Source: Chloroflexota bacterium (lineage in GTDB: Bacteria > Chloroflexota > Anaerolineae > UBA4142). From it: a DNA stretch of 38,653 bases. The notes beneath the pieces are model-generated. The model saw only the letters and a list, made by a program, of their open reading frames with translations. It made no database searches and was not told the origin of the DNA. The stretch is taken from positions 1-38,653 of the forward strand of contig JAMDCU010000076.1 of assembly GCA_023489485.1 (NCBI GenBank), written 5' to 3'. Of the stretch, positions 2,332 to 36,862 are shown in pieces. The position numbers were made by a program, and so were the translations under genes. Positions within the stretch are counted from its first letter, which is position 1, and each line of letters begins with the position of its first letter.

Positions 2332-3222
2332 CTAAGCCAGAACGTATTTCTTTTCCAACTCCGTCCAGAAATCCAGACCGGCAAATCTGAACATGTCCAG
2401 GATTGTTCCTGCTTCCACAGTGTCAAAAGCCCTCAATGTCCCCGTTTTGAGGAAGTCCTTGTACAAATCAATTACCAGTTTGGTAACGGCGCCCACCGGT
2501 ATTGCCGTCACCCACATCTTGGCACCCACCTCCTCGTAGTCTGCCGCCGTCATCTCGCGTGGTCCCATTGCCCAAATCTTTACCTCCGGGGCTCCCACTT
2601 TCTTGTAGAGCTCCCTCAGTGTCTCCTTGCCCCGCTCTTTAAACTTGGCCTTCGGCGGGACGGCATGGGGCAGGATGACATCTACGCCGAGCTCGACGCA
2701 CTTCTTGGCCCTTACCAGCATCTCATCATCGCCCAGCGTAGCCGCCGCATCAATCCTGGCAACAATAACAAAGTCCTTGTCCAGCTTGTCCCTCGCCTCA
2801 AGAACAGCCCCGATCTTGCCATAGTATTCATCCCGCGGCAGGACTTCTTGAACGCCCATAAACGGGCATTTGGTGGGATGTTTCTGGTCATCGATAAAGA
2901 TACCGGCGGCGCCAATCTTGATTAGTTCTGTCGTGGTCCGGAAGGCAGCCAATGCCCCGCCGTAGCCATCATCAGCATCAACGATAAGTGGTATTTCGAC
3001 CGAATCCGCCATATACTTGGCGATGCTGACGACCTCACTGGCCGTCGCGATACCAATATCAGGCATGCCCAGCTGGGCGCTGCGGATGGAGCCGCCACTC
3101 ATGAAGACCGCTTTCGCCCCGGCTGCCTGGGCGCATCTTGCCGTCAGGCAGTCATATGCCCCGGGTACACACAGGAACCCCGGCTTGTTCAAGAGGTCAC
3201 GCAGCATAGTTGTTTTCTTCAC
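2332..3222 (-). CDS. Isocitrate lyase/PEP mutase superfamily protein (lyase A)
   Basis: MSGGSI...VDADDGYGG...DDQKHPTKCPFMGVQEV. GTG start at 3222 preceded by an AAGGAGAG ribosome-binding site; the ORF-track start at 3282 is probably too far upstream. Confidence 0.85.
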   Translation of the reverse strand: MKKTTMLRDLLNKPGFLCVPGAYDCLTARCAQAAGAKAVFMSGGSIRSAQLGMPDIGIATASEVVSIAKYMADSVEIPLIVDADDGYGGALAAFRTTTELIKIGAAGIFIDDQKHPTKCPFMGVQEVLPRDEYYGKIGAVLEARDKLDKDFVIVARIDAAATLGDDEMLVRAKKCVELGVDVILPHAVPPKAKFKERGKETLRELYKKVGAPEVKIWAMGPREMTAADYEEVGAKMWVTAIPVGAVTKLVIDLYKDFLKTGTLRAFDTVEAGTILDMFRFAGLDFWTELEKKYVLA

Positions 3223-3289
3223 TTGACCACTCTCCTTGTCTTTTTGTTTGTCGATGGGCCTTGTTTTGACTCCCTGATCCAAGCCGCTG

Positions 3290-3808
3290 CTATCCCTTTC
3301 CTTCCGCGATCAGCTTGTCGCCATAGGCTTCAAGGCTGCCGGCCTCGAGCATGTCCAGGAGAAAGTCCGGGAACGGCTTGAACTTGATCGATTCCCCAGT
3401 GGTGACATTCTCGATGATACCGGCATGGAGGTCGGCCTCCACCACGTCTCCTTCCTTCACCTTCTTCTTTATTCCGGGTAATTCAATCAGGGGCAGGCCA
3501 ATCGCCACCGAGTTCTTGATGTAGTTCTCATCAAAGGACTCGGCGACGACGACCGATATGCCGCACTGCTGTATGGACTGCGGAGCATGGGGATGATCAT
3601 GGCCACAGCGGAAATTTGTGCCCGCGACCATGATGTCGCCCTTCTTCACCTTCTTGTGGAACTCGGGATCCACATTCTCCATGCAGTGCTCCCCCAGTTG
3701 GTCGTGGGTGAAGACTCCATAGTGGAGCTTGGCAAATGACACTATCTCGTTATCGACGTCCAAGTTGTCGCCGAAAATCCAGGTCTTACCCTTAAACTTT
3801 AGTGCCAT
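3290..3808 (-). CDS. Aconitase/LeuD-like hydro-lyase small subunit (module A)
   Basis: LeuD swivel-domain architecture (GKTWIFGDNLDVD...GDIMVAGTNFRCGHDHPHAPQSIQQCGISVVVAESF...). AGGAGG upstream of the ATG. Confidence 0.85.
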   Translation of the reverse strand: MALKFKGKTWIFGDNLDVDNEIVSFAKLHYGVFTHDQLGEHCMENVDPEFHKKVKKGDIMVAGTNFRCGHDHPHAPQSIQQCGISVVVAESFDENYIKNSVAIGLPLIELPGIKKKVKEGDVVEADLHAGIIENVTTGESIKFKPFPDFLLDMLEAGSLEAYGDKLIAEGKG

Positions 3809-5099
3809 CTATTCCTCCTGAAGGTATTTTCTCGGGTCAGTTATCTTGCCCTCAATCGCCGATGCCGCCACGGTGGCTGGACTCCCCAGGTAGACCTTGG
3901 CACTCTCGGCACCCATTCGACCCGGAACATTGGTCGTGCTCGACCCGATGCAGACCTCGTTCTCAGCGAGCGGAGTGTAGAAGCCAGGACACATCCCGCA
4001 CCCCGGCGCGCAAACAAATGCTCCCGCTTTGAGTAGCGTCTCCAAAACACCCGATTCTGTCGCCCGCGTCATAGAAGCGCTGCTGCCCGGCGTAATGTTG
4101 AACACCACCTTTGAATTTACTTTTCGACCTTTCATGATTTTGGCGGCTACCGCCAAGCCCTCATCACGGCCGCTGGCACAAGAGCCGATGAAGGCGTTGG
4201 TGATTGGTGTCCCTTCGACCTCGGCTATATTCTTCACCGTTGACCGATGTGGGGGAACAACCACCATGGGCTCAATCTTGGCACCGTCGATTTCGTAGAT
4301 CGCCGCGTACTGAGCATCCGGGTCACTGGCCAAAGGCTCGAACGGATAGTCGGTCCGGGCCTTGTACCAGTCGAGCACTTTCTTGTCCGGATTGACGATG
4401 CCTGTCTTCGCCCCGATAAACACCGAAAGGCAGCACATCGTACAGCGGCTGTCGATGCTCATTTGGTCGATGATCGGCCCGGCGTACTCGGCTACCTTGT
4501 TGAGGGCGACAGTCGGCCCGTACTCTTTCAGGATATACTCCAGGACGTCTCTACCCATAACGCCTTTCTTCAGCTTCCCCTTGATGATGAACTTTACGCT
4601 CCCCGGTACGCGGAGCCATGTCCAGCCGAAGCGCATGATGAAGTTGTTTGACGCCGAAGGAGCAAACCCAAAGGCGCCAACCCCACCCACGCTTATGGTG
4701 TGGTTGTCACCACACAGGTAGAAGCTTCCCGGCGTGACCCAGGCGCCCTCTACGGACATATGATGGTCGATGCCTATCCTACCGAGATCGAGGATATTTT
4801 CCTCAGGCACTCCCATCTGTCTGGCCCACTCAGCGTTCTGGCGGTGCGACTCCCTTTGACTTACCTTATCGATTGGTCGCCACCAGGCCCCGGCATGCTC
4901 CGGTGCCACCAGCGCCTTTTGGGGGTCCCAAATCTTGTCCCAGCCCCGCTTCTTAAAAGCTGCCGGCATGTTTACCCCCAAGTCACTGGTCATAAAGACA
5001 GACCTGGATGTGTTCCTGACCTGCACGTAATCGCCGGGGGGATACTTCTGGTTGTCCGGCTGCTTTGGCCAGGATTTTTTCAGCAATTGTTTTTCCCAA
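3809..5099 (-). CDS. Aconitase/LeuC-like hydro-lyase large subunit (module A), apparent frameshift near the N-terminus
   Basis: GSCASGRDEGLAVAAKIMKG and CAPGCGMCPGF provide Fe-S ligand motifs. The start at 5099 (TTG, GGAGG upstream) gives LGKTIAEKILAKAAGQPEVS, matching the paralogs (MGQTITEKILSRAAGRPVS), but that frame is broken at the G6 run 5036-5041. Confidence 0.8.
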
Positions 5100-5322
5100 T
5101 TTCTATAACCTCCTCTGCTTTTGTATTTATCCGAGTCTTAAGGAATTGCCGACCTCAAGGCCTACCCATCAGTGACGGAAGTACCCGATAAGATTACTAC
5201 CAGCGAATCATTTGCCGCCATCTACCGCTTCTTCGATAACCTCCTTTCATCTAGTATGCAGATCAGTAAGAGATAAACCTCCTTGAGAACCTTCCCACTA
5301 CCTGCCGCATCGGGTAAATCCG

Positions 5323-8719: not shown

Positions 8720-8723
8720 GCCT

Positions 8724-10111: not shown

Positions 10112-10990
10112 TTATTGGGAGTCCAGTCTTTTCAAAAGCAAGGCATACTCCTCTTCCACCTCCTTTTGTACCAGTTCCAGTTCTTCGGGCGTGATTCCGG
10201 CAAAGCGACCTTGGAGCTTGAGGTATTCGGCGACGGGCTGGGGTTTGCCCACCGGAACCGTGATTCTTCCTTTGACCCTGTCGACAATCTCATATAGCGG
10301 CCAGCTTCGTGTTCGGACGGCGGCCCGGGCGATCTCGACGCTCTTTTCTGGCTCGAACCCCCATCCTGGTGGACAGGGCGAGTGAATATGAATATAGGCC
10401 GGGCCGCCACTCGCTTTGGCCTTTCCGACTTTCTTCCGCAAATCCTCGACATATCCGATGGAGGCAGTCGCCGCATAAGGGATGCCATGCGCCGCCACAA
10501 TCTGCAGCATGTCTTTTCGGCGTGCCGTCTTGCCGGCCGGAGTGGTCGTGGTCCACGCCTGATGTGGCGTCGAACCGCTTCCCTGGATGCCCGTGTTCAT
10601 GTACGCCTCGTTATCATAGCAGACATAGAGAATACGGTCGCCCCGCTCGAATGCACCCGACAAGGACTGTAGACCGATATCCACCGTGGCACCGTCACCT
10701 GCAAATCCCAGCACGTTGATGTCACTTCTTCCCTGCATCTCAAAACCCGCTTTGATACCGGCCGCATACGCCGCCGTGTTCTCCAAGTTCCCCTGGAGTC
10801 CAGGTATTCTCAGCGCCGTCTCACTGCCAAAGCCCGAAAATAGAGCAGCGCAACCGGGGGGAATCACAATCACCGTGTTCCGGCCGAGCACGTCCACGAC
10901 GACGCGAATCGCCAGTTCCAGCCCACAACCTGCACACGCACTCACCCCATGAGCCACGAAACCTTTGGCACGTGTTTTGATCTCCAGCAT
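10112..10990 (-). CDS. porB: 2-oxoacid:ferredoxin oxidoreductase beta subunit (POR set 1)
   Basis: ACAGCGLELAIR and TPP motif GDGATVDIGLQSLSGAFERGDRILYVCYDNEAYMNTGIQ. Start 10990 overlaps the porA stop (TAATG). Confidence 0.9.
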   Translation of the reverse strand: MLEIKTRAKGFVAHGVSACAGCGLELAIRVVVDVLGRNTVIVIPPGCAALFSGFGSETALRIPGLQGNLENTAAYAAGIKAGFEMQGRSDINVLGFAGDGATVDIGLQSLSGAFERGDRILYVCYDNEAYMNTGIQGSGSTPHQAWTTTTPAGKTARRKDMLQIVAAHGIPYAATASIGYVEDLRKKVGKAKASGGPAYIHIHSPCPPGWGFEPEKSVEIARAAVRTRSWPLYEIVDRVKGRITVPVGKPQPVAEYLKLQGRFAGITPEELELVQKEVEEEYALLLKRLDSQ

Positions 10991-12186
10991 TATGACTGGA
11001 CCTCCCGAATGAACAAGGCGTTCTCTCGGACATCCAACCACCTTGCCCCCGATTCCAGTTCCTCTTGGCTGAGGAGCGCATAAAAGGCATTGGCAATACT
11101 TTCGACCGGCACATCCCTGCCGCCCAAGCCCGCGACAAATCCATGGATTTGCGTTGTGCCCGACTCTTTGCAGGCGGCGAGAACCTCGGCACAGACCGGA
11201 CCGGTTTCAGCCCCGAGGTTCGCGGAGCGATCGATGACACCGACACGAGGAACCTTCTTGAGGCATTTCCGGATCTCCGCCGCGGGAAAGGGCCGAAAGG
11301 AAATTATCTTGAGCACACCGACGCGGGCTCCTTTGGCTCTTAATTCGTCGACTGCACACTTGGCAGTACCGGACATCGAACCAAGCGTGATGAGGACGGC
11401 TTCGGCATCTTCGCAAGCATATGCCTCGACCGCGGAGTAACTCCTCCCAAATCGTCGGCCGAAATCCTCGAACACTTCAGAAACAACCGACCGCGCCGCT
11501 TCGAAAGCCTGCTGCTGCTGATAACGCATTTCCATGAAATCAGACGAAGGGGTCAGGTCGTTGATGAAGATGGGATGATCAGGGTCGAGGACGAGATTGT
11601 GCGGCTGGTAACGGGGCAGGAAATCATCGACATCGCTCTCCTCGGGGACCGATACGGCGTCGGTACGATGCGAGAGAAAAAACCCGTCGAGGCAGATCAT
11701 GGCGGGCAACTGGACCCGCTCGTCCTCGCCGATCCTATAGGCAGCCAAGGTCAGATCCAGAACTGCTTGTGCGTCTTCGGCGAAGAACTGTAGCCATCCC
11801 GAATCCCGCTCGGCCATACTGTCCTGGTGGTCGCACCAGAGGCTCCAGGGACTGACGAGGGCCCGGTTCACCACCGGCATGATAATCGGCACTCGGCACC
11901 CTGCTGCGACGCCCAAAACCTCGTGCATGAGCGCCAACCCGACCGACGAAGTCGCCGTCGCTGCGCGCACACCTGTAAGCTGGGCGCCGATGGCGCAAGA
12001 CAGCGCAGAATGCTCCGATTCCACCCGGATGTATTTCGCGTGCAGTCTCCCTTCCGCTACATAGTTGGCCAATTGTTCCGCAATGGGACTCTGCGGCGTG
12101 ATGGGATACGCGGAAATCACCTGGACTCGTGCCAGTCTCAGTGCTTCGCTCGCGGCACCATTGCCGTCTAGCATCATCCGGGGCAT
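10990..12186 (-). CDS. porA: 2-oxoacid:ferredoxin oxidoreductase alpha subunit (POR set 1)
   Basis: VISAYPITPQSPIAEQLANYVAEG...YIRVESEHSALSCAIGAQLTGVRAATATSSVGLALMHE, classic PorA N-terminal domain. Confidence 0.9.
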   Translation of the reverse strand: MPRMMLDGNGAASEALRLARVQVISAYPITPQSPIAEQLANYVAEGRLHAKYIRVESEHSALSCAIGAQLTGVRAATATSSVGLALMHEVLGVAAGCRVPIIMPVVNRALVSPWSLWCDHQDSMAERDSGWLQFFAEDAQAVLDLTLAAYRIGEDERVQLPAMICLDGFFLSHRTDAVSVPEESDVDDFLPRYQPHNLVLDPDHPIFINDLTPSSDFMEMRYQQQQAFEAARSVVSEVFEDFGRRFGRSYSAVEAYACEDAEAVLITLGSMSGTAKCAVDELRAKGARVGVLKIISFRPFPAAEIRKCLKKVPRVGVIDRSANLGAETGPVCAEVLAACKESGTTQIHGFVAGLGGRDVPVESIANAFYALLSQEELESGARWLDVRENALFIREVQS

Positions 12187-12188
12187 GC

Positions 12189-13097
12189 TTATTCACCTCT
12201 CTCGGGGACCATGGCGATACATCTCTTGGGGCATACGTTGGCACAGATTCCACAACCCTTGCAGTAGGCATAATCAAAACTAATGTCTTTACGGGGCGCA
12301 GAGCGTGTCACCGTGACGGTATCCACAGGACAATACTTCTCACAGATCTGGCAGAAGCTGCATTCTTGAAGGTTTACCACGGGGCGAACATTGCGCCATG
12401 AACCCGTGTTGGTGCTGGCGAAGACCGTGGCCACTGGTCCAAGAAGATATTTCCGTGTCTCGGGCTCTCCACTACTCATCGAACCGGAACGTGGGGGTCG
12501 CTCTGAGTGCAGCGTGTTCAAGAATCTCTTCTCTGTGCCCGGCGATTCTCTGTGGAGGGGGACAGCTTCTTGGAGTTGATCGTAGGCTCGCTGGGCGGCC
12601 TCGGCGTTCAGAGTTCCGGACTTGAACGTTTTGTCTATCGAGGCTTTCACCGACTCGATCTTGACGAGACCCGCTCCAGCCATTGCCCCCAGCATAGCCG
12701 CGTTCGGGATATCTCGCTTGATGGTTTCGAAAGAAATCCTGTGTGCGTCGACGAAATATGTCCGATGGTTCCGGAAAGGCATACTCTCGTCGAGGCTCGC
12801 CGCATTCACGATGAACACGGTCTTTTCATCGGTACCCGCCATGATGTCCACGCCCTTTTCAACCACGGCGACGTCGAAGAGAATCACATAGTTCGGCGTG
12901 TAGACAAAGGATTTGGATTTGATGGGACATGCATCGATGATCACATCGGCATAGACGGGAGCGCCCCGGCGCTCGTGGCCGTACGCGGGAATGGCCTGCG
13001 CAAACCTGTTCTCGACGATACCGACCGCTTCGGAAAAGATTTTGGCCGCAGTGACCACTCCCTGGCCCCCCAATCCGTGCATCTTGATCTGCTCCAA
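12189..13097 (-). CDS. 2-oxoacid:ferredoxin oxidoreductase gamma-delta fusion (POR set 1)
   Basis: Gamma domain (MHGLGGQGVVTAAKIFSEA...IPAYGHERRGAPVYADV) followed by a 2x[4Fe-4S] ferredoxin domain (CSFCQICEKYCPVD...CKGCGICANVCPKR). TTG start with GGAGG upstream. Confidence 0.88.
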   Translation of the reverse strand: MEQIKMHGLGGQGVVTAAKIFSEAVGIVENRFAQAIPAYGHERRGAPVYADVIIDACPIKSKSFVYTPNYVILFDVAVVEKGVDIMAGTDEKTVFIVNAASLDESMPFRNHRTYFVDAHRISFETIKRDIPNAAMLGAMAGAGLVKIESVKASIDKTFKSGTLNAEAAQRAYDQLQEAVPLHRESPGTEKRFLNTLHSERPPRSGSMSSGEPETRKYLLGPVATVFASTNTGSWRNVRPVVNLQECSFCQICEKYCPVDTVTVTRSAPRKDISFDYAYCKGCGICANVCPKRCIAMVPERGE

Positions 13098-25205: not shown

Positions 25206-26258
25206 TCAGTTGCCCACCAAGTGCGCCATTCGCTTCTTGGCCCCTCCTGCAGGGCCGAATGCCTGCCAAGTCTCCTCGCGTTTTGCCAACTCGCGGATTT
25301 CCTCGATACGGGTCCAATGATGGCAAGCCGTTGATTGATCGCTCGTCACTTGGGTCAGTGGCGGCATCTCTTCTCGGCAAACGTTGGAGTGGAATGGACA
25401 GCGATCGTAGAAACGACAGCCTGGCGGTGGGTTGACGAGGTTAGGTGGCGAGCCGGGAATCGAGATGAGTATTCTATCTTGTTTCATACTCGGGAAGGCG
25501 TTGCGCAGCCCCAAAGTGTACGGATTATACGGATGCTCCAGTACTTGCCGCGTGGGCCCGATTTCCATGATCTTGCCCGCGTACATCACCGCCGCGCGAT
25601 CACAGTTCTCGGCCACCACCGCCATATTGTGCGTCACGAGGAGCATCGCCTTCTTGAACTCTTGGCGGATCTGTCGCACTTGACGCAGGATTTGATCCTG
25701 AGTGACAACGTCCAGCCCGGTGGTGGGTTCGTCCGCCAGGATGAGAATGGGATTCAGAGACAAAGCCATCGCGATCATCACACGCTGGCGCATTCCGCCG
25801 CTGAACTGGTGCGGATAATCGCGCACACGTTTCCGGTCCAAGCCCACCAGTTCAAACAGCTCCTCAGCCCGCTGCATCGCCTCAGCACGACCGACCTTCT
25901 CGTGGGCGACGATGCTCTCGATGACCTGATCACCTACTCGCTGCACCGGGTCCAGTGCATTCATCGCGCTCTGTGTGATCATTGAAATCTCTTTCCAACG
26001 CAGCCGGCGAAGATCACCCGAACCCAAAGCCAGAATGTCGCGACCCTGGAAAAAGATGTGCCCGCCCGCGGCGAATCCATTCGGCGGGAACAGTCTCAGG
26101 ACCGACTTGACCAAGGTGGATTTGCCGCAACCCGATTCGCCCACCAGCCCCAGGCATTCATTGTGCTCGACGGCGAAAGAAACACCGTCGACGGCCTGCG
26201 CATACCCGTGTTGGGTTCGGTAATGGATTTTGAGATCTCTGATTTCTAAGAGCGACAT
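25206..26258 (-). CDS. Oligopeptide/dipeptide-type ABC transporter ATPase, DppD/OppD type
   Basis: [54 protein letters not shown]-terminal [18 protein letters not shown]. Confidence 0.9.
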
Positions 26259-26330: not shown

Positions 26331-28154
26331 TCAACTCGCGATCATAGTCTTGATTCGCTCTTGGTATTTGGTATCCGAAGCCGGCGGATAGTGCAACAGT
26401 CCCTTGTCGTCCCAAGTGTACCCCGCCGATTTCAGAATGTCCTTGGCCTTGTTCAGATCGAAGGGGATGGCCGGGATATTGGGATTGTAGTATGGGTGGG
26501 CCGGTCCGAAGACGGGGTCGCCCGAGAGCGAACCCGCGCCTTCCCACAGCACCTTGACCACAAATGGCCGATCGATCGCGTGCTGCACGGCTTTGCGAAG
26601 TTCGATATCCGCCCAGGGCAATTTCGGCTTGAGATTGAACTGGATTTGAGGAATAAGATAGTGGTTGTCAAACGATGGGGTGTTTACGATGGCGAGGTGC
26701 TTGGATTTCTGAAGCTCCTGCGCCTGGGAAGGGGTCAAATTCACGTTTGCCATGTCAATCTCTTTTGTCTGTAACTGCCCCATGATCCCATCCAAAGTGG
26801 GGATGACCTTGAAAAGCAGCTCATCGTAGGCGGGTGCCGCCCAATGGTCCTTGTTCGCCACGAGCAGCATCTCTTGATCCTGAATATGGTGGCCGAACTT
26901 GAAGAACCCGCTCCCAATGGGATTATCGATGATGAGATCACGCGGATCTGTCTTGCCTTGTTTCTCCAACAATCCATCCCACTGGTGCTTGGGCATGATG
27001 AACGAGACGAGCAGGAGACTGCCGACAAACGCGGCATAGGGCTGCTTGGTCACAAACCGCACCGTTCGGTCCCCCACTATATCCACACTCTTCAATGGGT
27101 CGAAAGCGATGGTCATCATGCCAGGCTTGTACTTCATCCAGTAGTCAAAGGTGAACTTGAGATCCTCGACGGTGACCGGTACACCGTCATGCCACTTCAT
27201 GCCCGCCCGCAGAGTGACATCCCAAGTCAGCGGGTCCACATTCTTCCAGGATTCCACCGCCCAGGGGATGATTTTCATGTCTTTGTCGAGCTGAACAAGT
27301 CGGTCGTAAATAAATTTACCCTCGTCGCGCCACGCGTTGGCGGGGCCAATCACGTTCGTGGTCCGCGCGTCAGCGGGCCGGCCGACGATCAAGCGCTTCT
27401 TTCCGGTCTTGGACTTGATGTTGATGTAAGTCCAAGGGAATTCCGTCCCCGCGATCCCGTTTCCAACGGTGGGCACCACTCCCTCCCAGTCTTCGGTGTC
27501 GTAGGCGTGAATGAGGTCCGGGTACCCCACGGCGAGATAGTAATAATTGTCCGCCATGACCTGAGTCGCTTGCCAAACAAGCTCTTTCCGCTTGGCGGGG
27601 TCTACCTCTTTCGCCTGTGCGTTGTACAACTGGTCGTATTTCGGATCGACCCACTCGCCGAAATTGCGCCTGCCGATTGGCGCCTCAGTCGAACTGCCGC
27701 GCGAAAGCAACAACTCATTCGGGTCAACCCGCTCCAGCCGGGAGTACGCCACCCCTGTGGTCAAGTCTCCAAACGTATGCTTGATCATGACATCCAGCCA
27801 TTGGTCATTGGAGACTGGATTCAATTTGACACGGAACCCGATGGACTCCAAATCGGTTTTGAACTTGCGCCAGCCGTCCGCGCTCCACGTTACGGCTGTG
27901 CTATAGGTGGCAGTGATTTCCGAGACGACATCTCCGGCAGGTCCGGCGGCCTTGGCGGAAACGGCGGTGGCGGCCGGGACCGCGGTCGCGGCCGGCGCCG
28001 GTGCCGGGCTGCACGACGCCAATACACTGGGCAGAACCAAGCTGCCCGCACTCAGGCCGAGCAGCTTGAGAAAGGTGCGCCGATCAATCGCGAGGGATTG
28101 CCTGCGATCCAAGTCGCTTGTTTGCATTTCTTCTCGTTCATGTTCCGCTTTCAT
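26331..28154 (-). CDS. ABC transporter substrate-binding protein, family 5 (DppA/OppA type), predicted Tat lipoprotein
   Basis: DRRTFLKLLGLSAGSLVLPSVLASCSPAPAPAAT (twin-arginine plus lipobox); extended SBP_5 body (VDPLTWDVTLRAGMKWHDGVPVTVEDLKFTFDYW). AAAGGAGG before the ATG at 28154. Confidence 0.88.
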   Translation of the reverse strand: MKAEHEREEMQTSDLDRRQSLAIDRRTFLKLLGLSAGSLVLPSVLASCSPAPAPAATAVPAATAVSAKAAGPAGDVVSEITATYSTAVTWSADGWRKFKTDLESIGFRVKLNPVSNDQWLDVMIKHTFGDLTTGVAYSRLERVDPNELLLSRGSSTEAPIGRRNFGEWVDPKYDQLYNAQAKEVDPAKRKELVWQATQVMADNYYYLAVGYPDLIHAYDTEDWEGVVPTVGNGIAGTEFPWTYINIKSKTGKKRLIVGRPADARTTNVIGPANAWRDEGKFIYDRLVQLDKDMKIIPWAVESWKNVDPLTWDVTLRAGMKWHDGVPVTVEDLKFTFDYWMKYKPGMMTIAFDPLKSVDIVGDRTVRFVTKQPYAAFVGSLLLVSFIMPKHQWDGLLEKQGKTDPRDLIIDNPIGSGFFKFGHHIQDQEMLLVANKDHWAAPAYDELLFKVIPTLDGIMGQLQTKEIDMANVNLTPSQAQELQKSKHLAIVNTPSFDNHYLIPQIQFNLKPKLPWADIELRKAVQHAIDRPFVVKVLWEGAGSLSGDPVFGPAHPYYNPNIPAIPFDLNKAKDILKSAGYTWDDKGLLHYPPASDTKYQERIKTMIAS

Positions 28155-28199
28155 CTCCGATTCCTCCTTTGGCAAATCGTGGCCTCCGATCAGCCCGTT

Positions 28200-28733
28200 T
28201 CAGAGTTTTCCCGCGGCCGCCCTTTGCTTGAGGCGCGGGTAGAGCCCCCCGGCTTCGATCATCTCCAAGAGAAACGATGGATACGGGATGAAATGATATT
28301 CCTTGCCCTTCGTCATGTTCCTAATCACTCCCCCCGCCAGGTCCAACTCGATTTCATCTCCTTCCGCTGTTAGCTTGCGTATTCCCGGATACTGCACAAC
28401 CGGCAGCCCGTGCTCCAGTGACATCCGGAAGAAGTTTCCGCTGGTTGAGTCACAGATGACTGCCGCGACCCCCGCCCCCTTAATCGCCTTGCAAGCGTGA
28501 TCGTGGTCGTGCCCGTATCCAAACGTCTCCCCCGCGACGATAAAGTCACCCTTCTTTACTTTCTTGGGAAAGTTCGGGTCCACCGTCGTCATGCAGTATT
28601 GCCCCAAATCCTCCGGCGTGGGCATTTTCCCCTTCGCGATGAATTGTTGAAAGATCTCGAAAGGGCAAATCTCCCAGTCCACATCCATCACGTCACCAAA
28701 CGTCCACGCCCGTCCTTTCAGTTTCGTTGTCAT
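28200..28733 (-). CDS. LeuD-like hydro-lyase small subunit (module C)
   Basis: GRAWTFGDVMDVDWEICPF...GDFIVAGETFGYGHDHDHACKAIKGAGVAAVICDSTSGNFFRMSLEHGLPVV. Confidence 0.88.
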   Translation of the reverse strand: MTTKLKGRAWTFGDVMDVDWEICPFEIFQQFIAKGKMPTPEDLGQYCMTTVDPNFPKKVKKGDFIVAGETFGYGHDHDHACKAIKGAGVAAVICDSTSGNFFRMSLEHGLPVVQYPGIRKLTAEGDEIELDLAGGVIRNMTKGKEYHFIPYPSFLLEMIEAGGLYPRLKQRAAAGKL

Positions 28734-28745: not shown

Positions 28746-30014
28746 TCATAAGTACTTGCGTGGGTCCGCAATCTTGCCCTCGACGCACGACGCGGCTACG
28801 GTCGCCGCATTGGCCAGATAGATTTCCGCATCCCGGCTACCCATTCGACCGCGGTAGTTGCAGGTACCGGTGGCGACGCACACATCTCCCGCGCCCAAGG
28901 GGGTTGTCAAACCCGCGCACATGCTGCAGGAGGGTACCGGCACGATCGCCTCGGCTTCGAGGAAAATCTCCATCAGCCCTTCTTGGACGCATTGCTTTAG
29001 GATCCGATCCGTACCCGGCGTAATGTTGAAGACGACTTCGGGATGGATCTTGCGTCCCTTAAGAACCTGAGCCACCATCCGCATATCTTCCATCCGGCCA
29101 TTCGCACACGACCCCGCAAAGCCACGGTTGATCGGCTTGCCCTCATGCTGGGTCACCGGATGTACGTGATATCGCTCCGGTGGCGGCACTATTTGCGGGA
29201 CGAGGTTCGATACGTCTATCTCAAAGACATGGGCATAGCTGGCGTCAGGATCGCTATATAACGGCTCGAAAGGATTCGGATTCCGCGATTTCACATACTC
29301 GATGCACTTTTGGTCCGGGTTGATGATCGCCGTCCAGGCGCCAAAAAACAGCGCATTGCAGCATAGGGTGAAGCGACTATCGATGCTCATATCGTCAATC
29401 GCCGGTCCCACCCACTCGATCACCTTGCCGGCCGAGGCAATTGGGCCGATCTGCCCGAGGGCGTACTCGACCACGTCACGGCCCACGACACCCTTGGGCA
29501 GCTTTCCGTTTACGACAATCTTGACGCTGTCCGGCACTCTCACCCACGTCTTGCCGGTTATCAGATAGTTGTTCGAGCCGAACGTCAGAGGAAAGGCGAA
29601 GGCGCCCAATGCACCTGAGGTCGTCGTGTGGCCGTTGTTGTGCGCGCACATGAAAATCTCGCCGGGCAGTGCCCAGGCGTTATCGCCGCTGACGACGTGC
29701 TCGATGCCCGCCCTACCTAGCTCAAAGATATTTTCGAGCGGAATGCCCATGCGCTTGCCGAACTCGCGCGTGCGCGAGCGAGCCTCCCCCGCGTTGTGGG
29801 AGGGCGACGTTCCGATATGCCCATCTACAAAGTGAATGAGGTTCGGGTCGAATAACTTGTCGACCCCCAACTCTTTCATCATGGGGCTTGTCCGGTCACC
29901 CGTAAATCTACCCATCGTGATGGGAACGCGGGAGCTAACCTCAATGTACTCCCCAGGCGATACCGGCCTTCCCGCTGCTCTAGAGAGAATTTTCTCTGTA
30001 ATGGTCTGACCCAT
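28746..30014 (-). CDS. LeuC-like hydro-lyase large subunit (module C)
   Basis: MGQTITEKILSRAAGRPVSPGEYIEV...GSCANGRMEDMRMVAQVLKG...VPSCSMCAGLTTPLGAGDVCVATGTCNYRGRMGSRDAEIYLANAATVAAS. Confidence 0.9.
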   Translation of the reverse strand: MGQTITEKILSRAAGRPVSPGEYIEVSSRVPITMGRFTGDRTSPMMKELGVDKLFDPNLIHFVDGHIGTSPSHNAGEARSRTREFGKRMGIPLENIFELGRAGIEHVVSGDNAWALPGEIFMCAHNNGHTTTSGALGAFAFPLTFGSNNYLITGKTWVRVPDSVKIVVNGKLPKGVVGRDVVEYALGQIGPIASAGKVIEWVGPAIDDMSIDSRFTLCCNALFFGAWTAIINPDQKCIEYVKSRNPNPFEPLYSDPDASYAHVFEIDVSNLVPQIVPPPERYHVHPVTQHEGKPINRGFAGSCANGRMEDMRMVAQVLKGRKIHPEVVFNITPGTDRILKQCVQEGLMEIFLEAEAIVPVPSCSMCAGLTTPLGAGDVCVATGTCNYRGRMGSRDAEIYLANAATVAASCVEGKIADPRKYL

Positions 30015-30062: not shown

Positions 30063-31028
30063 CTAGAACGGTTTCTGCGGTTCCGTGCGTTTGTCCTTGC
30101 GCGGCTCGTAAAGTCCACGCGATCCTTCATACTTCGCCAGCCATTCCACGGGCAGGTATTTCTCCTCCGCCTCGGCGACCTCCGGAAAGCCGACAAGGTC
30201 GAAGGTGTGCGGCACAGGATGATTCCACGCGTGCTTTTCCCATGCGTCATGCGCTTGCGTACCGCGCACTTTAAAGTCGTTCGCAAATTCCCAGTACGCC
30301 TGAACCCGCGCTTGAATCATTCCAAACTCGGGCCACAAGGAAAGCCCCAGCGAGACGAGTTCGTCTGGAGTTGCCGGGGGCTGGATGAAGCCTAGCGTAC
30401 AAAACATCGGTCCGTCGACCGCCGCCCGGACCTGCCTGATTTCTTCCCGGGAAAGAAGTGCTTCCGGATACACCACATCCACGCCGACTTCTTTGTAAGC
30501 TCTCAAACGGCGGATCACTTCTTCGACCGAACCACCCACCGTCCCGCGAGCATCGCAGCGAGCAATGATGACGAAATCTGGATCGAGTTCGTTCTTGGCA
30601 TCCACCGCAGCCTTGTACTTGCCCACGGCCTCTTCGAACGAGATGATCTGCTTGCCCTTGACAAACCCGCAGCGCTTCGGAAAGGGCTGGTCTTCGATGT
30701 GGATGCCGGCAACCCCCGCGCGAATGAACTCCTGCACGGTGCGACGCACGTTAATGGCGTTGCCAAAGCCCTGATCGGCATCACAAATGACGGGGATTTT
30801 GACACAGGAGGCGATTCGTCTCGCATTGTCGATCATTTCCGTGGCCGTGATAAGGCCGGCATCGGGGAGTCCGTAAACTGTGGCGGCGGTCATCGCCCCC
30901 GAAATATGGGCTACCTCGTAGCCCGTCATTTCGATGATGCGCGCATCCAATGCGCAACCCACGACCGCGCCGATGATGACTCGTCCTTTCCGATTGAACA
31001 ACTCCTGCAGCTTCGTCGTCGGTCTCAT
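30063..31028 (-). CDS. ICL/PEP mutase superfamily lyase (module C)
   Basis: HISGAMTAATVYGLPDAGLITATEM...ICDADQGFGNAINVRRT...PFPKRCGFVKGKQIISFEE. ATGA overlap with the upstream LeuD-like gene. Confidence 0.88.
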   Translation of the reverse strand: MRPTTKLQELFNRKGRVIIGAVVGCALDARIIEMTGYEVAHISGAMTAATVYGLPDAGLITATEMIDNARRIASCVKIPVICDADQGFGNAINVRRTVQEFIRAGVAGIHIEDQPFPKRCGFVKGKQIISFEEAVGKYKAAVDAKNELDPDFVIIARCDARGTVGGSVEEVIRRLRAYKEVGVDVVYPEALLSREEIRQVRAAVDGPMFCTLGFIQPPATPDELVSLGLSLWPEFGMIQARVQAYWEFANDFKVRGTQAHDAWEKHAWNHPVPHTFDLVGFPEVAEAEEKYLPVEWLAKYEGSRGLYEPRKDKRTEPQKPF

Positions 31029-31618
31029 TGTTCTTCTCCTGACATTTCGTTCGCCACTTTATGCTTGAGATGGGGATACAATCCTCCCACCGCGATCCTC
31101 TCGAGGAGCGACTCGGGATAGAGCGGGAACCGCATTTCGTCTCCCGTCGTGAGGTTAACAATGGTGCCTGCAGCGAGATTGACTTGAAGGTGATCTCCTT
31201 GATGCACTTTGTCCCGCAGGCCGCGACATTCCACGACCGGTAATCCCAGATTGAGCGATGTCATCATGAAATTCGCGTTGCTCGATTCGCACAGTACGGC
31301 ACCAACCCCAGCCTCCTTGATGGCGAGCGATGCAGCACCCATCGCATGCGGATCCTCCATTTCACAATCCAGGCAGGAGGCGCTATAGCCCATGTTCTCA
31401 CCGGCGACGATGAAATCTCCCGGCTGGACGCAGCGGCTAAACTCAGGGTCTACGTTCTCCAAACACACCTTACCCAATTTCCCCGTCAAGAAACCCCCGC
31501 CTGGGCTCTTGAGTTGAGCCATGGTCTCGAGCGAGCAGATTTGCCAATCGGCGTCGAGTTGATCGCCAAAGACCCAGGCTCGACCACGCAACACGAATGT
31601 ATCCGTCAGTTTCCTCAC
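31025..31618 (-). CDS. Second LeuD-like small subunit near module C, without an adjacent dedicated large subunit
   Basis: GRAWVFGDQLDADWQICSLETMAQ...GDFIVAGENMGYSASCLDCEMEDPHAMGAASLAIKEAGVGAVLCESSNANFMMTSLNLGLPVVE. Confidence 0.85.
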   Translation of the reverse strand: MRKLTDTFVLRGRAWVFGDQLDADWQICSLETMAQLKSPGGGFLTGKLGKVCLENVDPEFSRCVQPGDFIVAGENMGYSASCLDCEMEDPHAMGAASLAIKEAGVGAVLCESSNANFMMTSLNLGLPVVECRGLRDKVHQGDHLQVNLAAGTIVNLTTGDEMRFPLYPESLLERIAVGGLYPHLKHKVANEMSGEEQ

Positions 31619-31757: not shown

Positions 31758-33422
31758 TCAGTTTGCATCGGCCACCATCTGAATGCTGCCGCAGGGACAT
31801 TCCCGTGCACAGATCCCGCATCCTTTACAATAGCTGTCTTCAAAATGATAGCCGTTTCCCGGCCCCAGCTTTTTGATGGCCATATCGGGGCAAAAGGTGC
31901 GGCAGTTATCGCACTCGAAGCACTGGGTGCAACTGAAACAGCGCGCCGCTTCGTTCTTCGCCGTGGACACATCGTATCCCGTGCCGTAGACTTCTCGAAA
32001 ATTCCGCTGATGTTCCCCGGCGAAACGCCCGGTCAATGAATTTCGAACTGTCGGAGAAAAGTAGAAGGGATTCAGCGTTTCGTAAGTGACCGTTGGGGCT
32101 TTTCCGTTGGGAGCGGGAAGTTCGCCTCGCAAAAAGGCGTCGATACATTGAGCGGCACGTTTTCCCTGGGCCAGCGCCCGCGCGGCGGTTCCGCAGTCGG
32201 GCGTCGCGTCCCCCGCTGCAAACACACCCCGCCGGTCGGTCATTAGGGTCGCCGTGTCCACCGCGATATTGCCTCTTGGGGTTTGCCGCACCGAACCCGC
32301 CCTCGAGATGAACTCGACCTCGGGCGCTTGACCTGCCGCAAAAATAACCATGTCGCAAGGTAGAACCTGATCTGACCCAGGGCGGGTCTCCCAAGTGAAC
32401 CAGCCAACCGGGTCCATGTTTAGGGCAGCGACTTGCTGGCAGCGCACCCCGGAAATATGGCGCTCTTCATGGAGGATTTCCGCCACCGCCCGCTCGTCAA
32501 TGATTCGAATTCCTTCCGCTTCTGCCGCACCGATTTGCCGAGGGTGAGCGGGCATGGTGTCGGCGCGTTCCAAGCAGAGGATGTCGACTTGCTTGGCGCC
32601 GAAACGAAATGCAGTGCGAGCGACATCAATAGCTACGTTCCCTCCGCCGACCACCACTACATGTTTGCCGACTCGGATTCGCCTACCCGAGCGCGCATGA
32701 TGGAGGAATTCCACCCCTACCAGCGCATCGGGCAGATCGGCTCCAGGAATAGCTGGTTTGTAGCCGCGATGGGCCCCCACTGCGAGGAGGACAGCCTGAT
32801 AATCCTCGGTGAATAACAGGTCGAGGTCCGTTACTGGAGTGTCCAACTTGATTTCAATGCCCAAAGCCAGCAGCCGGTTGATCTCGGCCTGCAGCACCCT
32901 TGTGGGCAAATTGAATTTCGGAACTCCGACTCTCAGCATTCCACCAGCCACCGGAAGCGCTTCGAAAACGGTCACGGCATAGCCATGACGAGCTAGGTGA
33001 TACGCAGATGCCAAGCCCGCAGGACCTGAACCGACACACGCCACCTTTGTGTTCCTTCGCTCGGGTGGCGATGGGAGTTGCAGGGAGTGCTCCAGAGCAT
33101 AATCGCCCAAGAACCGCTCCAGGTTGGCGACCGATACCGGCTCATCATACGGACTGCGATTGCAGTTCTCTTCGCACGGAGCGTAGCAAATTCGTCCCAG
33201 GACCGCGGGCAAAGGATTATCACCCACCCACAAACGCCAAGCGCCGATCAGGTCACCTCGTCTGAGCAATTGGAGACACTGAGGGATTTTTGTATTATTC
33301 GGACAACTCACAGTGCAGGGGCCAACTCGGTTGGTGTGCGCTGGTCGTCGGTCTCGCCATCCCACACGAGTGTTCCCTTCTTGGGGGGCTCGCCGCGCAA
33401 CAGGCCATCGCTCATCCAGCAT
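31758..33422 (-). CDS. GltD-like FAD/NAD(P) oxidoreductase with C-terminal 2x[4Fe-4S] ferredoxin domain
   Basis: N-terminal Fe-S domain (CYAPCEENCNR), FAD motif VACVGSGPAGLASAYHLARHGYAVTVFEALPVAGGMLRVGVP, NAD(P) motif VVVVGGGNVAIDVARTA, C-terminal CFECDNCRTFCPD...CKGCGICARECPCG. Confidence 0.88.
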   Translation of the reverse strand: MLDERWPVARRAPQEGNTRVGWRDRRPAHTNRVGPCTVSCPNNTKIPQCLQLLRRGDLIGAWRLWVGDNPLPAVLGRICYAPCEENCNRSPYDEPVSVANLERFLGDYALEHSLQLPSPPERRNTKVACVGSGPAGLASAYHLARHGYAVTVFEALPVAGGMLRVGVPKFNLPTRVLQAEINRLLALGIEIKLDTPVTDLDLLFTEDYQAVLLAVGAHRGYKPAIPGADLPDALVGVEFLHHARSGRRIRVGKHVVVVGGGNVAIDVARTAFRFGAKQVDILCLERADTMPAHPRQIGAAEAEGIRIIDERAVAEILHEERHISGVRCQQVAALNMDPVGWFTWETRPGSDQVLPCDMVIFAAGQAPEVEFISRAGSVRQTPRGNIAVDTATLMTDRRGVFAAGDATPDCGTAARALAQGKRAAQCIDAFLRGELPAPNGKAPTVTYETLNPFYFSPTVRNSLTGRFAGEHQRNFREVYGTGYDVSTAKNEAARCFSCTQCFECDNCRTFCPDMAIKKLGPGNGYHFEDSYCKGCGICARECPCGSIQMVADAN

Positions 33423-34305
33423 GCCTTAATCCCCCCATTGAATTTGCTCTCGACCTCTCAATGCCCTTGATCGCATCCTCTTGTATGTTGGCAATCTGCT
33501 CTTCGGTGAGCCCCTCGAAGCGGCCTTGCGTGAGAACATAGTCCTTGACCGGTCTCAGTGGTCCTGTCGGCTGGATCCACCTCTGTTGACCGTCGATGAT
33601 TTCGTAGAGAGGGAACAGGCCCGTTTCTACCGCCAAGCGAGCAATCTCGATCGTCGCATCGGGTGGGTAATGCCAACCCGTAGGACATGGGACATGAAGG
33701 TGAATAAAAGCAGAGCCTTCCGCCGCCAAGCCACGCTGGATGCTTCTTTTCAACTCTTCCGGGTATGCAACTGATGCTGTAGCGACGTAGGCCGGGTTAT
33801 GGGCAGCGATGACCCGAGCAATATCCTTACGCGGCGTCAGCTTCCTCCCCGGAGTCGTCGTCGTCAGTGCCCCTATCGGTGTTGACCCGCTTCCTTGAGC
33901 TCCGGTATTCATGTAACCCTCGTTGTCATAGCACACGTAGAGAAACCGTTGCCCCCGTTCCAGCGCTCCGGAAAGAGACTGCAATCCAATATCGACGGTG
34001 GCACCGTCTCCGGCGAAGCCGACCAGATGGAGATCGGACTTGCCCAGAACCTCTAGACCTGCTTGCATACCGGAAAGATAGGCCGCCGTTGCCCCAAGGT
34101 TCCCCATGAACGCCGGAATCTGAAGGGGCGTTCTGGATCCCATGCCGATGAAGATATATCCGCAACCCGGGGGGATGACGAGGATGCTGCGGGGTCCGAT
34201 TTGGCTTAGGAGCAGGCGAAAGGCTATCGCCATTCCACATCCGGCACACGTGGTTAGTCCTGGCTGTAAGAGATCTGTGACGAAACCCTCTCGCAAGTCG
34301 CTCAT
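33412..34305 (-). CDS. porB: 2-oxoacid:ferredoxin oxidoreductase beta subunit (POR set 2)
   Basis: TTCAGCGMAIAFRLLL...GDGATVDIGLQSLSGALERGQRFLYVCYDNEGYMNTGAQGSGSTPIGALTTTTPGRK. Start at 34305 forms an ATGA overlap with porA. Confidence 0.9.
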   Translation of the reverse strand: MSDLREGFVTDLLQPGLTTCAGCGMAIAFRLLLSQIGPRSILVIPPGCGYIFIGMGSRTPLQIPAFMGNLGATAAYLSGMQAGLEVLGKSDLHLVGFAGDGATVDIGLQSLSGALERGQRFLYVCYDNEGYMNTGAQGSGSTPIGALTTTTPGRKLTPRKDIARVIAAHNPAYVATASVAYPEELKRSIQRGLAAEGSAFIHLHVPCPTGWHYPPDATIEIARLAVETGLFPLYEIIDGQQRWIQPTGPLRPVKDYVLTQGRFEGLTEEQIANIQEDAIKGIERSRANSMGGLRHAG

Positions 34306-35483
34306 AGAGGCCTGTCCGGAAGCACATCGATCCAACAGGAGCGAAACCCATCCGGTGAACTTTCCGGTTTGAGCAACGACTGGATGATCTTCTCAATAGT
34401 CCTAGGGCTGATATCACGTCCTCCCAAGCCGGCCACAAAGCCACGGACTCCAGGCGGGCTGTCAAGGTTGTAAAGGGCTGCCCTCACCTCACTCGTCAGA
34501 GGACCTACATATCCCAATGCAGGGCTTCGCTCGATGACTCCCACCACCCGCGCGCCCCGACACACTGCCCGCACTTGCTTGGCCGGGAAGGGACGGAACG
34601 CGGTGAGCTTGACCAACTTGGCACGTTCGAGTGCATACTTCTGGAGCACATGATGAATCGTTCCACACACCGAACCCATGCCGATTAGAACGACTTTGGA
34701 GTCTGGCGGACCAAAGCATTCGACCGGGGCATAATGCCGACCGAAATGAGATTCGAACTCGGCCATGACCTCAGGAATGACTTCGCACGTCGCGTCGATC
34801 GCTTGGCTGTGCCGGTATCTGACTTCCGTGTATTCATCCGGAGGCGTCAGGGTGTTGACCACCATCGGTTCATCGACGTCCAGACGAACGGGAGATAGAG
34901 CTCGCGGTGGTAAGAATGCGTCTACTTGCGATTGATCTGGCAGGGATAGCACTTCGCTGACATGCGAAAGGAAGAAACCGTCCAAGTTCACCATCACGGG
35001 CAGCAAGACCCTTCGATCCTCGGCAATTCGGTAGGCTATAATCACAAAATCCAGCGCTTCTTGGACCGTCGCGGCGCAGAGCGAAAGCCATCCCTGGTCT
35101 CGCGTTCCCATCATATCGGATTGATCGCCCCAAATATTCCACGGTCCCAAGATGGCGCGGTTGACGACGGCCATGACGATGGGTTGACGGCACCCGGCGG
35201 CGAGACCCAGGACTTCGTGCATCAACTCCAACCCGACTGACGAGGTAGCTGTAAACGCCCGCGCACCGACGAGGGAGGCACCAATGGCACCCGCGAGCGC
35301 CGAGTGCTCCGACTCCACACGCAGATAGCGCCCATTCAGCTCGCCTGCACTAATGGCCTTCGCCAGGCCCTCGGGAATCGCGCTCTGGGGCGTAATCGGG
35401 TACGCTGAGACGACTTGGATCCGAGATAGACGGGCCCCATAGGCAACCGCCCCGTTTCCGCTCAGGACAACCCTAGTCGCCAC
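34302..35483 (-). CDS. porA: 2-oxoacid:ferredoxin oxidoreductase alpha subunit (POR set 2)
   Basis: VVSAYPITPQSAIPEGLAKAI...YLRVESEHSALAGAIGASLVGARAFTATSSVGLELMHE. GTG start 35483 with AGGAG upstream is preferred to the ORF-track start at 35564. Confidence 0.9.
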   Translation of the reverse strand: MATRVVLSGNGAVAYGARLSRIQVVSAYPITPQSAIPEGLAKAISAGELNGRYLRVESEHSALAGAIGASLVGARAFTATSSVGLELMHEVLGLAAGCRQPIVMAVVNRAILGPWNIWGDQSDMMGTRDQGWLSLCAATVQEALDFVIIAYRIAEDRRVLLPVMVNLDGFFLSHVSEVLSLPDQSQVDAFLPPRALSPVRLDVDEPMVVNTLTPPDEYTEVRYRHSQAIDATCEVIPEVMAEFESHFGRHYAPVECFGPPDSKVVLIGMGSVCGTIHHVLQKYALERAKLVKLTAFRPFPAKQVRAVCRGARVVGVIERSPALGYVGPLTSEVRAALYNLDSPPGVRGFVAGLGGRDISPRTIEKIIQSLLKPESSPDGFRSCWIDVLPDRPL

Positions 35484-35491
35484 GAAACTCC

Positions 35492-36040
35492 TCAGAACTT
35501 GGTGATGTTCTTGAAGGCTCTTCTTGCTACGAGCGCGTTTCTTTCCCCTCGTTCGCCTGGCCAAAACGCCAAAATGGCTTGAACCAGAGCGCCTATACCG
35601 ATCCAGCCGGTTGTGGCCGCAAAGGCCCCGAGCATGGCGGCATTGGGAGGGGTAGCTGTGCCAAAGGTCTCTTGCGTTATTGCATTGGCATCAAGAAAGC
35701 CGCCGCAAAGACCTAACTTGAATAATTCGGGAGATTGAGAATGAGGGAGATTGGCTACGCAAAACACTGGACGTTGACCCTTATGGATCAATTGAGCCCA
35801 GGGGGTAGCATTCCAGAGGAACGAGACAATACAGTCGGGCTTGTATATATACGAGTGAGGAAGAATGGGCTCGTCAGAGAGGCGAACATGCGCATAGACG
35901 GGAGCGCCGCGTTGCTCCGGGGTGAACGCAGGGATGCTTTGCGCGTACCGGCCTTCGTACACGCCCGCTGCACTGGTCAAAAGATGAGCCGCGACAACGA
36001 CTCCTTGCCCGCCGAGACCGTACAGAGATATCTCTTGCAC
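35492..36040 (-). CDS. porG: 2-oxoacid:ferredoxin oxidoreductase gamma subunit (POR set 2)
   Basis: QEISLYGLGGQGVVVAAHLLTSAAGVYEGRYAQSIPAFTPEQRGAPVYAHVR. GTG start with GAGGAG upstream. Confidence 0.88.
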   Translation of the reverse strand: MQEISLYGLGGQGVVVAAHLLTSAAGVYEGRYAQSIPAFTPEQRGAPVYAHVRLSDEPILPHSYIYKPDCIVSFLWNATPWAQLIHKGQRPVFCVANLPHSQSPELFKLGLCGGFLDANAITQETFGTATPPNAAMLGAFAATTGWIGIGALVQAILAFWPGERGERNALVARRAFKNITKF

Positions 36041-36298
36041 CAGAGAGCATCTCCTCGCCTGAACAAGACGGCACGTCACTCAATCAGCGGAGATCTGTCG
36101 CCTGCTGTCATTACACGACTTACCAACTCGCTCAACCAGTCACGATCAACTGGAGCCCGGATTCTCGTCTAATATACGATCCCAGTTAAATCGAGGGAAA
36201 TAGTAAGCGGATTAGTTCGCAAGTCAGCTCATTTTGCTTATGTGTGTTCCTCTCCCATTTATGCCAGGTCATTCGTGCTTGCTCAAACCGAGAGGACG

Positions 36299-36862
36299 TT
36301 AGAAAGAGGGCGGAGTAATCGCCCAGATGGCGATAGTTTTTTCTGATCCCGGATTGTGATACCAATGAGGCAGAATACTTCGAAAATAGATGCTATCTCC
36401 AGCCTCGAGTACGAATTTCTCACCGCCGATGTGGATTTCAAGAGTTCCCTTGAGGAGTACGGCACATTCCTCGCCGTGGTGACTGTGCGGATGATCTTTG
36501 GTAATGACACCGGGAGCATGCTCTATCCAGAGCAATTCGATCGCACGATTCAAGTCAGGACTCAGGAGTTCGTACGTGACATTCATATCAGGGAAGCTGA
36601 GGCGCTTTCTCTCCGATCGTTTGACCACGACTTGATTGGACGAACCTGTTCCGTCAAAAAAAGATGCAATCGGAACGCCCAGACCCGTCGCGAGCTTATG
36701 GATCGTGTCGTAGGAGGGGTTCCCCAAACCTCTCTCGAGTTGGCTCAAGAGACCCATGCTGACACAGGCTCTCTGAGAGAGCTGCTCCAGGGTCAACCCC
36801 CGCTTTTCGCGGAGCTTTTGCAGAGTGATACCTAATTCTTGGAGAGAATTTGTGTCAGGCAT
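36299..36862 (-). CDS. XRE-family HTH regulator with C-terminal cupin domain
   Basis: LGITLQKLREKRGLTLEQLSQRACVSMGLLSQLERGLGNPSYDTIHKLATGLGVPIASFF, then cupin HSHHGEECAVLLKGTLEIHIGGEKFVLEAGDSIYFRSILPHWYHNPG. Confidence 0.92.
   Translation of the reverse strand: MPDTNSLQELGITLQKLREKRGLTLEQLSQRACVSMGLLSQLERGLGNPSYDTIHKLATGLGVPIASFFDGTGSSNQVVVKRSERKRLSFPDMNVTYELLSPDLNRAIELLWIEHAPGVITKDHPHSHHGEECAVLLKGTLEIHIGGEKFVLEAGDSIYFRSILPHWYHNPGSEKTIAIWAITPPSF

Follow-up and report, generated by a model that had tools for sequence, protein, structure and literature searches.

Histidine-loop LeuCD-type hydratases and their lyase partners in a candidate carboxylic-acid gene cluster of a Chloroflexota bacterium

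What might a bacterium do with several LeuCD-type hydratases encoded side by side with lyases of a single superfamily? The question is raised by contig JAMDCU010000076.1 of GenBank assembly GCA_023489485.1, from a Chloroflexota bacterium (Anaerolineae), whose 38,653 nucleotides were analysed as a whole and are called the window below; it is contig C98 of a 3.12-Mb metagenome-assembled genome (MAG) with a completeness of 70.7%. On its minus strand the window carries a cluster of three LeuC and four LeuD genes, four genes for lyases of the isocitrate lyase (ICL)/phosphoenolpyruvate (PEP) mutase superfamily, two sets of 2-oxoacid oxidoreductase (POR) genes, two HMGL/LeuA-like genes (the second of them broken), a single MmgE/PrpD gene, and a single Opp importer (table 1). 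Families were assigned by Pfam and NCBIfam profile scans of the window proteins; together with a structural model of LeuD4, these bear out the inventory and the common orientation reported in an initial annotation, whose single HMGL-family enzyme is now joined by a second, broken gene. The protein families and the conserved synteny exclude a chance origin of the grouping. What our analysis adds is a clade of hydratases with a His-x-His loop and their steady partnership with ICL-superfamily lyases.

Two kinds of hydratase

The LeuCD modules had at first been treated as equivalents, a view that alignment does not support. Judged by their motifs, at least two kinds of hydratase are present: LeuC2-LeuD2, with canonical motifs, and the His-x-His pairs LeuC1-LeuD1 and LeuC3-LeuD3. 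In the latter, the small subunit carries G-H-[DGSP]-[HN] in place of the GSSR loop, the site of aconitase Ser642 and Arg644 (PDB entries for S642A and R644Q exist). This replacement is found in 20/20 LeuDs of the clade, namely LeuD1, LeuD3, and 18 partners of related LeuCs (six from the Dehalococcoidia MAG fen_1014, two from genome G1157, one each from G470 and G441, and eight plasmid-borne), a count that excludes a Roseomonas plasmid LeuD fitting neither loop pattern. GSSR is retained in every canonical LeuD aligned, including those of Methanocaldococcus, Pyrococcus, E. coli, nine relatives of the same class, the leucine operons of fen_1014 and G470, Skermanella, Peribacillus, and Paraburkholderia, as well as in LeuD2 and G470_D2.

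The large subunits paired with these LeuDs have lost the NRNF motif (TCNY in LeuC1, TTNV in LeuC3, with TLN also among clade members) and the Ser of DSH. The three Fe-S cluster cysteines (GSC, CxxC) are retained in LeuC1-3 and in all relatives aligned. In the LeuC tree, LeuC1, LeuC3, and the LeuCs of fen_1014, G470, G441, G1157, and Proteobacteria form one clade (support 100/99), and the canonical LeuC clade of the window's own class is separate from it (100/100). The initial annotation had named a placement of all three LeuCD sets in canonical leucine-biosynthesis or aconitase clades as one outcome that would speak against it; the tree instead puts LeuC1 and LeuC3 outside the canonical LeuC clades. 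LeuC1D1 and LeuC3D3 look like 3-isopropylmalate/citramalate isomerase LeuCD and homoaconitase HacAB in fold family, cluster ligands, and heterodimer arrangement, yet they fail two sequence features of the family, GSSR and NRNF, and for this reason we do not class them as isopropylmalate dehydratases. LeuC2, in contrast, retains all canonical motifs including NRNF; its position in the tree is weakly supported, the nearest sequence being G470_C2 (90/91). The fourth small subunit, LeuD4, has no Pfam match, but its AlphaFold2 model (pLDDT 86, pTM 0.84) resembles 3vba, a LeuD from a methanogen, with TM scores of 0.78 (query) and 0.90 (target), and on this model LeuD4 has the LeuD fold.

Lyase partners across genomes

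The LeuC-LeuD-ICL unit recurs on four contigs of fen_1014 (C106, C119, C135, and C10), in G470, twice in G1157, and on megaplasmids of Azospirillum, Variovorax, Comamonas, Polaromonas, and Rhodococcus. An ICL-superfamily gene adjoins the LeuC1/LeuC3-type hydratase, or lies no more than about 7 kb away, in 16 of 19 loci, a proportion that is no formal comparison since canonical LeuCD loci were fetched with shorter flanks. For the plasmid-borne pairs the figure is seven of eight within the fetched stretch, at distances from adjacent to about 6.5 kb. The hydratase-lyase pairing first proposed from the window is thus seen across phyla. Opp or branched-chain amino acid (BCAA)-type importers adjoin the units in several genomes, and one G1157 copy continues with genes for an SDR, a CoA-transferase, and a protein of the MaoC type. 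In G470, SBP-OppB-OppC genes (SBP, solute-binding protein) precede the order LeuC1-LeuD1-LeuD4-ICL1, which is followed by another ICL, LeuC2, and LeuD2. As G470 holds the four-gene module too, the combination of an importer, two LeuDs, and hydratases of both kinds in one mixed cluster is an old unit and not an accident of this contig.

The megaplasmid cassettes of Azospirillum, Variovorax, and Comamonas, labelled “aconitase family protein / 3-isopropylmalate dehydratase / isocitrate lyase-PEP mutase family,” share with the window the His-x-His loop, the hydratase clade, an ICL partner with the conserved Cys, and an ABC importer. They differ in their aerobic hosts; by generic annotation the plasmid loci carry BCAA-type importer genes, often with a FAD-linked oxidoreductase and an IclR regulator, where the window has Opp, POR, and XRE-cupin genes. 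LeuC1/LeuC3-type genes were detected in 1/396 genomes of the window's class and 1/400 of its phylum (its own genome both times), in 3/393 of fen_1014's class, and in 2/156 of its order. A single further scan, of GTDB contigs, used two peptide patterns only, and the distribution is therefore undercounted, as the plasmid matches show. In the literature searched, this combination of genes had no assigned pathway, and a homologous cluster with an assigned pathway, the other counterindication named at the outset, was not found either.

All four window lyases have the catalytic Cys, the Mg ligands Asp85/87, and Arg158 (PrpB numbering). ICL2 also has KRCGH, Glu188, and Asn210, Gly47 being the only tested PrpB residue that is missing; it is not classed as PrpB because it scores 230 bits against TIGR02317 (cut-off 354) and falls outside the PrpB branch of the ICL tree. 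ICL1 (KRCGF, N210T), ICL3 (QRCGW), and ICL4 (TKCPF, E188H, N210I) depart from the PrpB pattern. The model of ICL4 matches both 2,3-dimethylmalate lyase 3fa3 and PrpB (TM about 0.79), which as a predicted superfamily fold match assigns no substrate. According to the tree, the lyases paired with His-x-His hydratases belong to three distinct branches (ICL1-type, ICL4-type, and KRCP/KSCP-type), all of them different from that of PrpB. Between relatives, the hydratase and lyase genes differ at 0.48-0.61 of third codon positions versus 0.12-0.21 of second positions, a purifying pattern that makes them look maintained. On this third-position excess a decayed island was rejected, despite the broken MFS, HMGL, and FAD neighbours.

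In fen_1014, the lyases with Cys on C119, C135, and C10 follow a LeuCD pair in 3/3 cases; the C106 lyase likewise comes after LeuCD, though its catalytic Cys is lost. This 2.8-Mb genome holds ten ICL-superfamily genes (L031-L041), seven without the catalytic Cys, and six Cys-less genes stand apart from LeuCD, mostly beside family-5 binding proteins. A fifth ICL gene of the window's own genome (contig C162, L042), with KRCGH, lies beside SBP-OppB-OppC and hydantoinase A/B genes, and on a Paraburkholderia plasmid LeuCD, hydantoinase A/B, and ICL are grouped.

The names “3-isopropylmalate dehydratase” and “isocitrate lyase/PEP mutase family” have been given to many genes on similarity alone; the loop change and the steady lyase pairing allow such annotations to be split and yield concrete targets for expression. 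If active, the His-x-His enzymes would represent a second way for the aconitase superfamily to abstract a proton, and would point to a carbon source common to probable anaerobes and aerobic soil bacteria. A bolder proposal is that the clade forms a new catalytic class of this superfamily, in which His would replace the Ser base and the Arg clamp, hydrating a class of substrates that known LeuCD enzymes do not use and feeding dedicated ICL lyases, in an undescribed carboxylic-acid pathway spread horizontally between anaerobic and aerobic bacteria; we advance it tentatively, the odds being somewhat against it.

A candidate catabolic route and its rivals

Both POR sets (33412-36079 and 10112-13097) comprise alpha, beta, and gamma subunits and a ferredoxin part. 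In set 1 this part resides in the GltD-like protein, which is probably the electron-transfer subunit, and its location suggests NAD(P) as acceptor. Alpha, beta, and gamma subunits with a GltD-like flavoprotein bearing a 4Fe-4S part are likewise found in phenylglyoxylate:NAD oxidoreductase (PadEFGHI) and other 2-oxoacid oxidoreductases, but the window proteins score 272 and 232 against PadG and PadI, where the NCBIfam cut-off is 700. On C135 of fen_1014, LeuC-LeuD-ICL-PORgamma-4Fe4S-PORalpha-PORbeta are contiguous, with an aldehyde:ferredoxin oxidoreductase gene before them and a molybdenum (Mo) hydroxylase gene after them, and on C10 LeuC-LeuD-ICL-PORgamma-PORalpha extends to the contig end. 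That the units run into POR genes supports the earlier suggestion that PORs oxidise the 2-oxoacid released by the lyase.

We read the cluster, with a probability of about 0.6, as a catabolic island for imported carboxylic acids, acting by hydration, retro-aldol cleavage, and POR oxidation of 2-oxoacids; the direction and substrates of the reactions, the 2-oxoacid product, the assignment of PORs to lyases, and all catalysis are what we infer. The Opp-type ABC importer would take up the acid or a precursor, and heterodimeric LeuCD-type Fe-S hydratases would add or move a hydroxyl group on an unsaturated di- or tricarboxylate. The resulting 2-hydroxyacid would be cleaved by the ICL-superfamily lyases to a smaller acid and a 2-oxoacid of the pyruvate or glyoxylate type, and POR set 1 with the GltD/PorD-like protein, and POR set 2, would convert the 2-oxoacid to acyl-CoA, CO2, and a reduced carrier. 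One branch would use the His-x-His enzymes (LeuC1-LeuD1 with LeuD4 and ICL1, and LeuC3-LeuD3 with ICL4); the other, mirroring the methylcitrate route, would use LeuC2-LeuD2, ICL3/ICL2, the LeuA-like enzyme, and PrpD. Of the pathway initially proposed, the pairing and the POR link are supported by synteny; dimethylmaleate-like substrates and a parallel action of the pairs on different acids are conjecture.

Several points weigh against this reading. With a MAG 70.7% complete the downstream route cannot be closed. The catalytic loop that known hydratases have is missing from LeuD1 and LeuD3, as is the Glu188 of PrpB from ICL4, so that activity could differ or be lost in each, and enzymes of the POR families may work in both directions. 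Nor is the lyase obligatory, as in G441 the hydratase stands beside MmgE/PrpD with no ICL gene in the fetched stretch, and on C55 of fen_1014 it stands beside an SDR. Finally, broken genes cut the LeuC3-LeuD3-ICL4 unit off from the main operon.

The contiguous genes ICL3, LeuC2, LeuD2, HMGL/LeuA-like, and PrpD recall a methylcitrate route whose synthase would be LeuA-like, a branch that we propose as a hypothesis. Extended to the whole cluster, this hypothesis becomes a rival explanation: the LeuA-like enzyme would condense an acyl-CoA with oxaloacetate, PrpD and LeuC2D2 would isomerise the product, ICL2/ICL3 would cut it to succinate and pyruvate, and the other modules would be duplicates with the same substrate range. 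As in the known cycle (PrpC, PrpD, AcnB/AcnD, PrpB), a PrpD-family dehydratase, a hydratase, and a PrpB-family lyase are adjacent, and ICL2 retains nearly the whole PrpB active site. LeuA-like Re-citrate synthases occur in other anaerobes (PMC12016533). In alignment, the window protein has the catalytic Arg and, as metal site, HVHND; against the rival, it has Glu instead of the usual Asp in RDGEQ and lacks both IHQDG and the regulatory domain of LeuA. Its best matches in the other cluster-bearing genomes that were searched reach 28-35%, so that none is a close homologue, and no such gene was seen beside the His-x-His hydratase in the G441, G1157, and plasmid loci. The window's genome has a GltA-type citrate synthase at another locus, and the LeuA-like gene is therefore not needed for the tricarboxylic acid cycle. 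The cluster further departs from the cycle in having a LeuA-like and not a GltA-like synthase and LeuCD in place of AcnB/AcnD, with LeuC1 and LeuC3 in a separate clade with a different loop and ICL1 and ICL4 outside the PrpB clade. A variant methylcitrate cycle seems an unlikely account of the whole.

Less probable still is the end of a nicotinate-type pathway, in which dimethylmaleate hydratase (DmdAB) and 2,3-dimethylmalate lyase (Dml) would yield propionate and pyruvate, as in anaerobic nicotinate degradation by Eubacterium barkeri. Both systems combine a LeuCD-type Fe-S hydratase with an ICL-superfamily lyase, with 2-oxoacid release expected; NCBIfam names the small-subunit family LeuD/DmdB, the best match of the ICL4 model is annotated as 2,3-dimethylmalate lyase, and Mo-hydroxylases occur near the units on C135 of fen_1014 and in G441. 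Yet the scanned window genes include no nicotinate genes (Mo-hydroxylase, enamidase, or B12 mutase), and the repeated modules and the Opp importer are foreign to the pathway as known; by description, the window also differs from DmdAB/Dml in the His-x-His loop of two hydratases and in having PORs of its own. Biosynthesis would also group LeuA-like, LeuCD, and PEP-mutase-superfamily genes, whether for leucine-type or 2-oxoacid chain elongation or for phosphonates (PEP mutase, phosphonomethylmalate synthase and isomerase), but we consider it highly improbable. The PEP mutase motif EDK-x5-NS is present in none of the four ICL proteins, which have EDQ or DDQ with Cys instead, and phosphonate synthesis was rejected on this ground. 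Leucine synthesis or chain elongation was rejected for the His-x-His modules on the tree, the missing dehydrogenase (no LeuB/IDH-family gene among the scanned window genes), and the missing regulatory domain; moreover, the leucine-type LeuC of the genome lies outside the cluster, in a LeuA-LeuC open frame. This frame of 858 aa, on contig C2 (L052:6629-9204), joins LeuA-like and LeuC-like domains, a possible fused synthase-isomerase, and adjoins 2-hydroxyglutaryl-CoA dehydratase and BcrAD-type genes.

Gene layout and minor observations

The GC content of the window (0.564) compares with 0.555-0.583 in three other stretches of its genome, and an RNA family scan of the window gave no match. Table 1 follows the gene order from high to low coordinates; broken MFS genes and a FAD-protein fragment lie between POR set 2 beta and LeuC3. 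Intergenic gaps do not exceed 75 bp from 31618 down to 13789, which marks an operon-like stretch, and the single split Opp system is interleaved with the enzyme genes.

Table 1. Features of the cluster, from high to low coordinates.
Feature	Position	Strand	Basis
Likely regulator of the cluster: XRE family, C-terminal cupin	36299..36862	-	Pfam HTH_31, Cupin_2
POR set 1 gamma, without ferredoxin domain	35492..36079	-	Pfam POR
POR set 1 alpha	34302..35564	-	POR_N, PFOR_II
POR set 1 beta (thiamine pyrophosphate)	33412..34335	-	TPP_enzyme_C; NF008818 320 bits, under cut-off
GltD-like FAD-NAD(P) protein, C-terminal PorD-like 4Fe-4S part	31758..33422	-	NF009410 531 bits, above cut-off; PorD_KorD 47 bits
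LeuD4, no GSSR, carries insert	31025..31618	-	LEUD_arch 88 bits; AlphaFold2 fold match 3vba; 61% homologue in same four-gene module of G470
ICL1 lyase, motif PKRCGF	30063..31028	-	PEP_mutase 146 bits; 66% in G470
LeuC1, His-x-His clade hydratase large subunit	28746..30014	-	Aconitase 214 bits; tree clade
LeuD1, GHDHDH loop instead of GSSR	28200..28733	-	Profile scans, alignment
Family-5 solute-binding lipoprotein (Opp importer), unusual lobe order	26331..28175	-	SBP_bac_5
OppD ATPase	25206..26258	-	ABC_tran, oligo_HPY
ICL2 lyase, complete PrpB-type motif KRCGH	24254..25183	-	PEP_mutase 176 bits; active-site residues
Second HMGL gene, broken (pseudogene)	~23161..24178	-	Split among three frames and interrupted by stops; 27-32% identical to HMGL
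OppF ATPase	22100..23101	-	ABC_tran, oligo_HPY
Class I methyltransferase	21191..22072	-	Methyltransf_11
ICL3 lyase, QRCGW, 73% identity to ICL2	20332..21264	-	Profile scan, alignment
LeuC2, canonical-motif hydratase large subunit	19030..20298	-	NF001614 515 bits, above cut-off 385
LeuD2, retains GSSR	18488..19021	-	LEUD_arch 149 bits; alignment
HMGL/LeuA-like enzyme without LeuA regulatory domain, putative acyl-CoA + oxoacid synthase or lyase	17176..18462	-	HMGL-like 154 bits; alignment
MmgE/PrpD-family dehydratase	15755..17116	-	MmgE_PrpD_N and _C
OppB permease	14743..15717	-	Profile scan
OppC permease	13789..14718	-	Profile scan
MOSC-domain protein	13166..13651	-	Profile scan
POR set 2 gamma with fused 4Fe-4S part	12189..13097	-	Profile scan
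POR set 2 alpha	10990..12186	-	Profile scan
POR set 2 beta	10112..11041	-	Profile scan
LeuC3, His-x-His clade hydratase large subunit	3809..5086	-	Profile scan; up to 66% to fen_1014
LeuD3, GHDHPH loop	3290..3808	-	Profile scan, alignment
ICL4 lyase, TKCPF, PrpB Glu188 to His	2332..3282	-	Profile scan, model, alignment

The methyltransferase and the MOSC protein have no clear role in the cluster. The region from 5.3 to 10 kb contains the FAD-protein fragment, the broken MFS genes (two transporter genes split into several frames at 7219-10000, minus strand), and a second copy of the 3′ end of ICL4. This duplicated end forms a 121-bp direct repeat (93%) at 5324-5444 and 2317-2437 that flanks LeuC3-LeuD3-ICL4, and on its sequence appears to be the trace of a tandem copy or an insertion. 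Near the contig end, an open frame at 374-1402 (minus strand) combines an MFS N-terminal part with a phage-integrase C-terminal part and might represent an insertion scar or an assembly chimera. At another locus (L051:2034-3512), a protein of the MtmB family (monomethylamine methyltransferase) with no in-frame stop is encoded between a FAD protein and a Mo-hydroxylase. In the solute-binding protein of the window, residues 29-229 correspond to positions 348-546 of a normal homologue, and residues 289-586 to its positions 116-400, a lobe order as in circular permutation or recombination between tandem copies.

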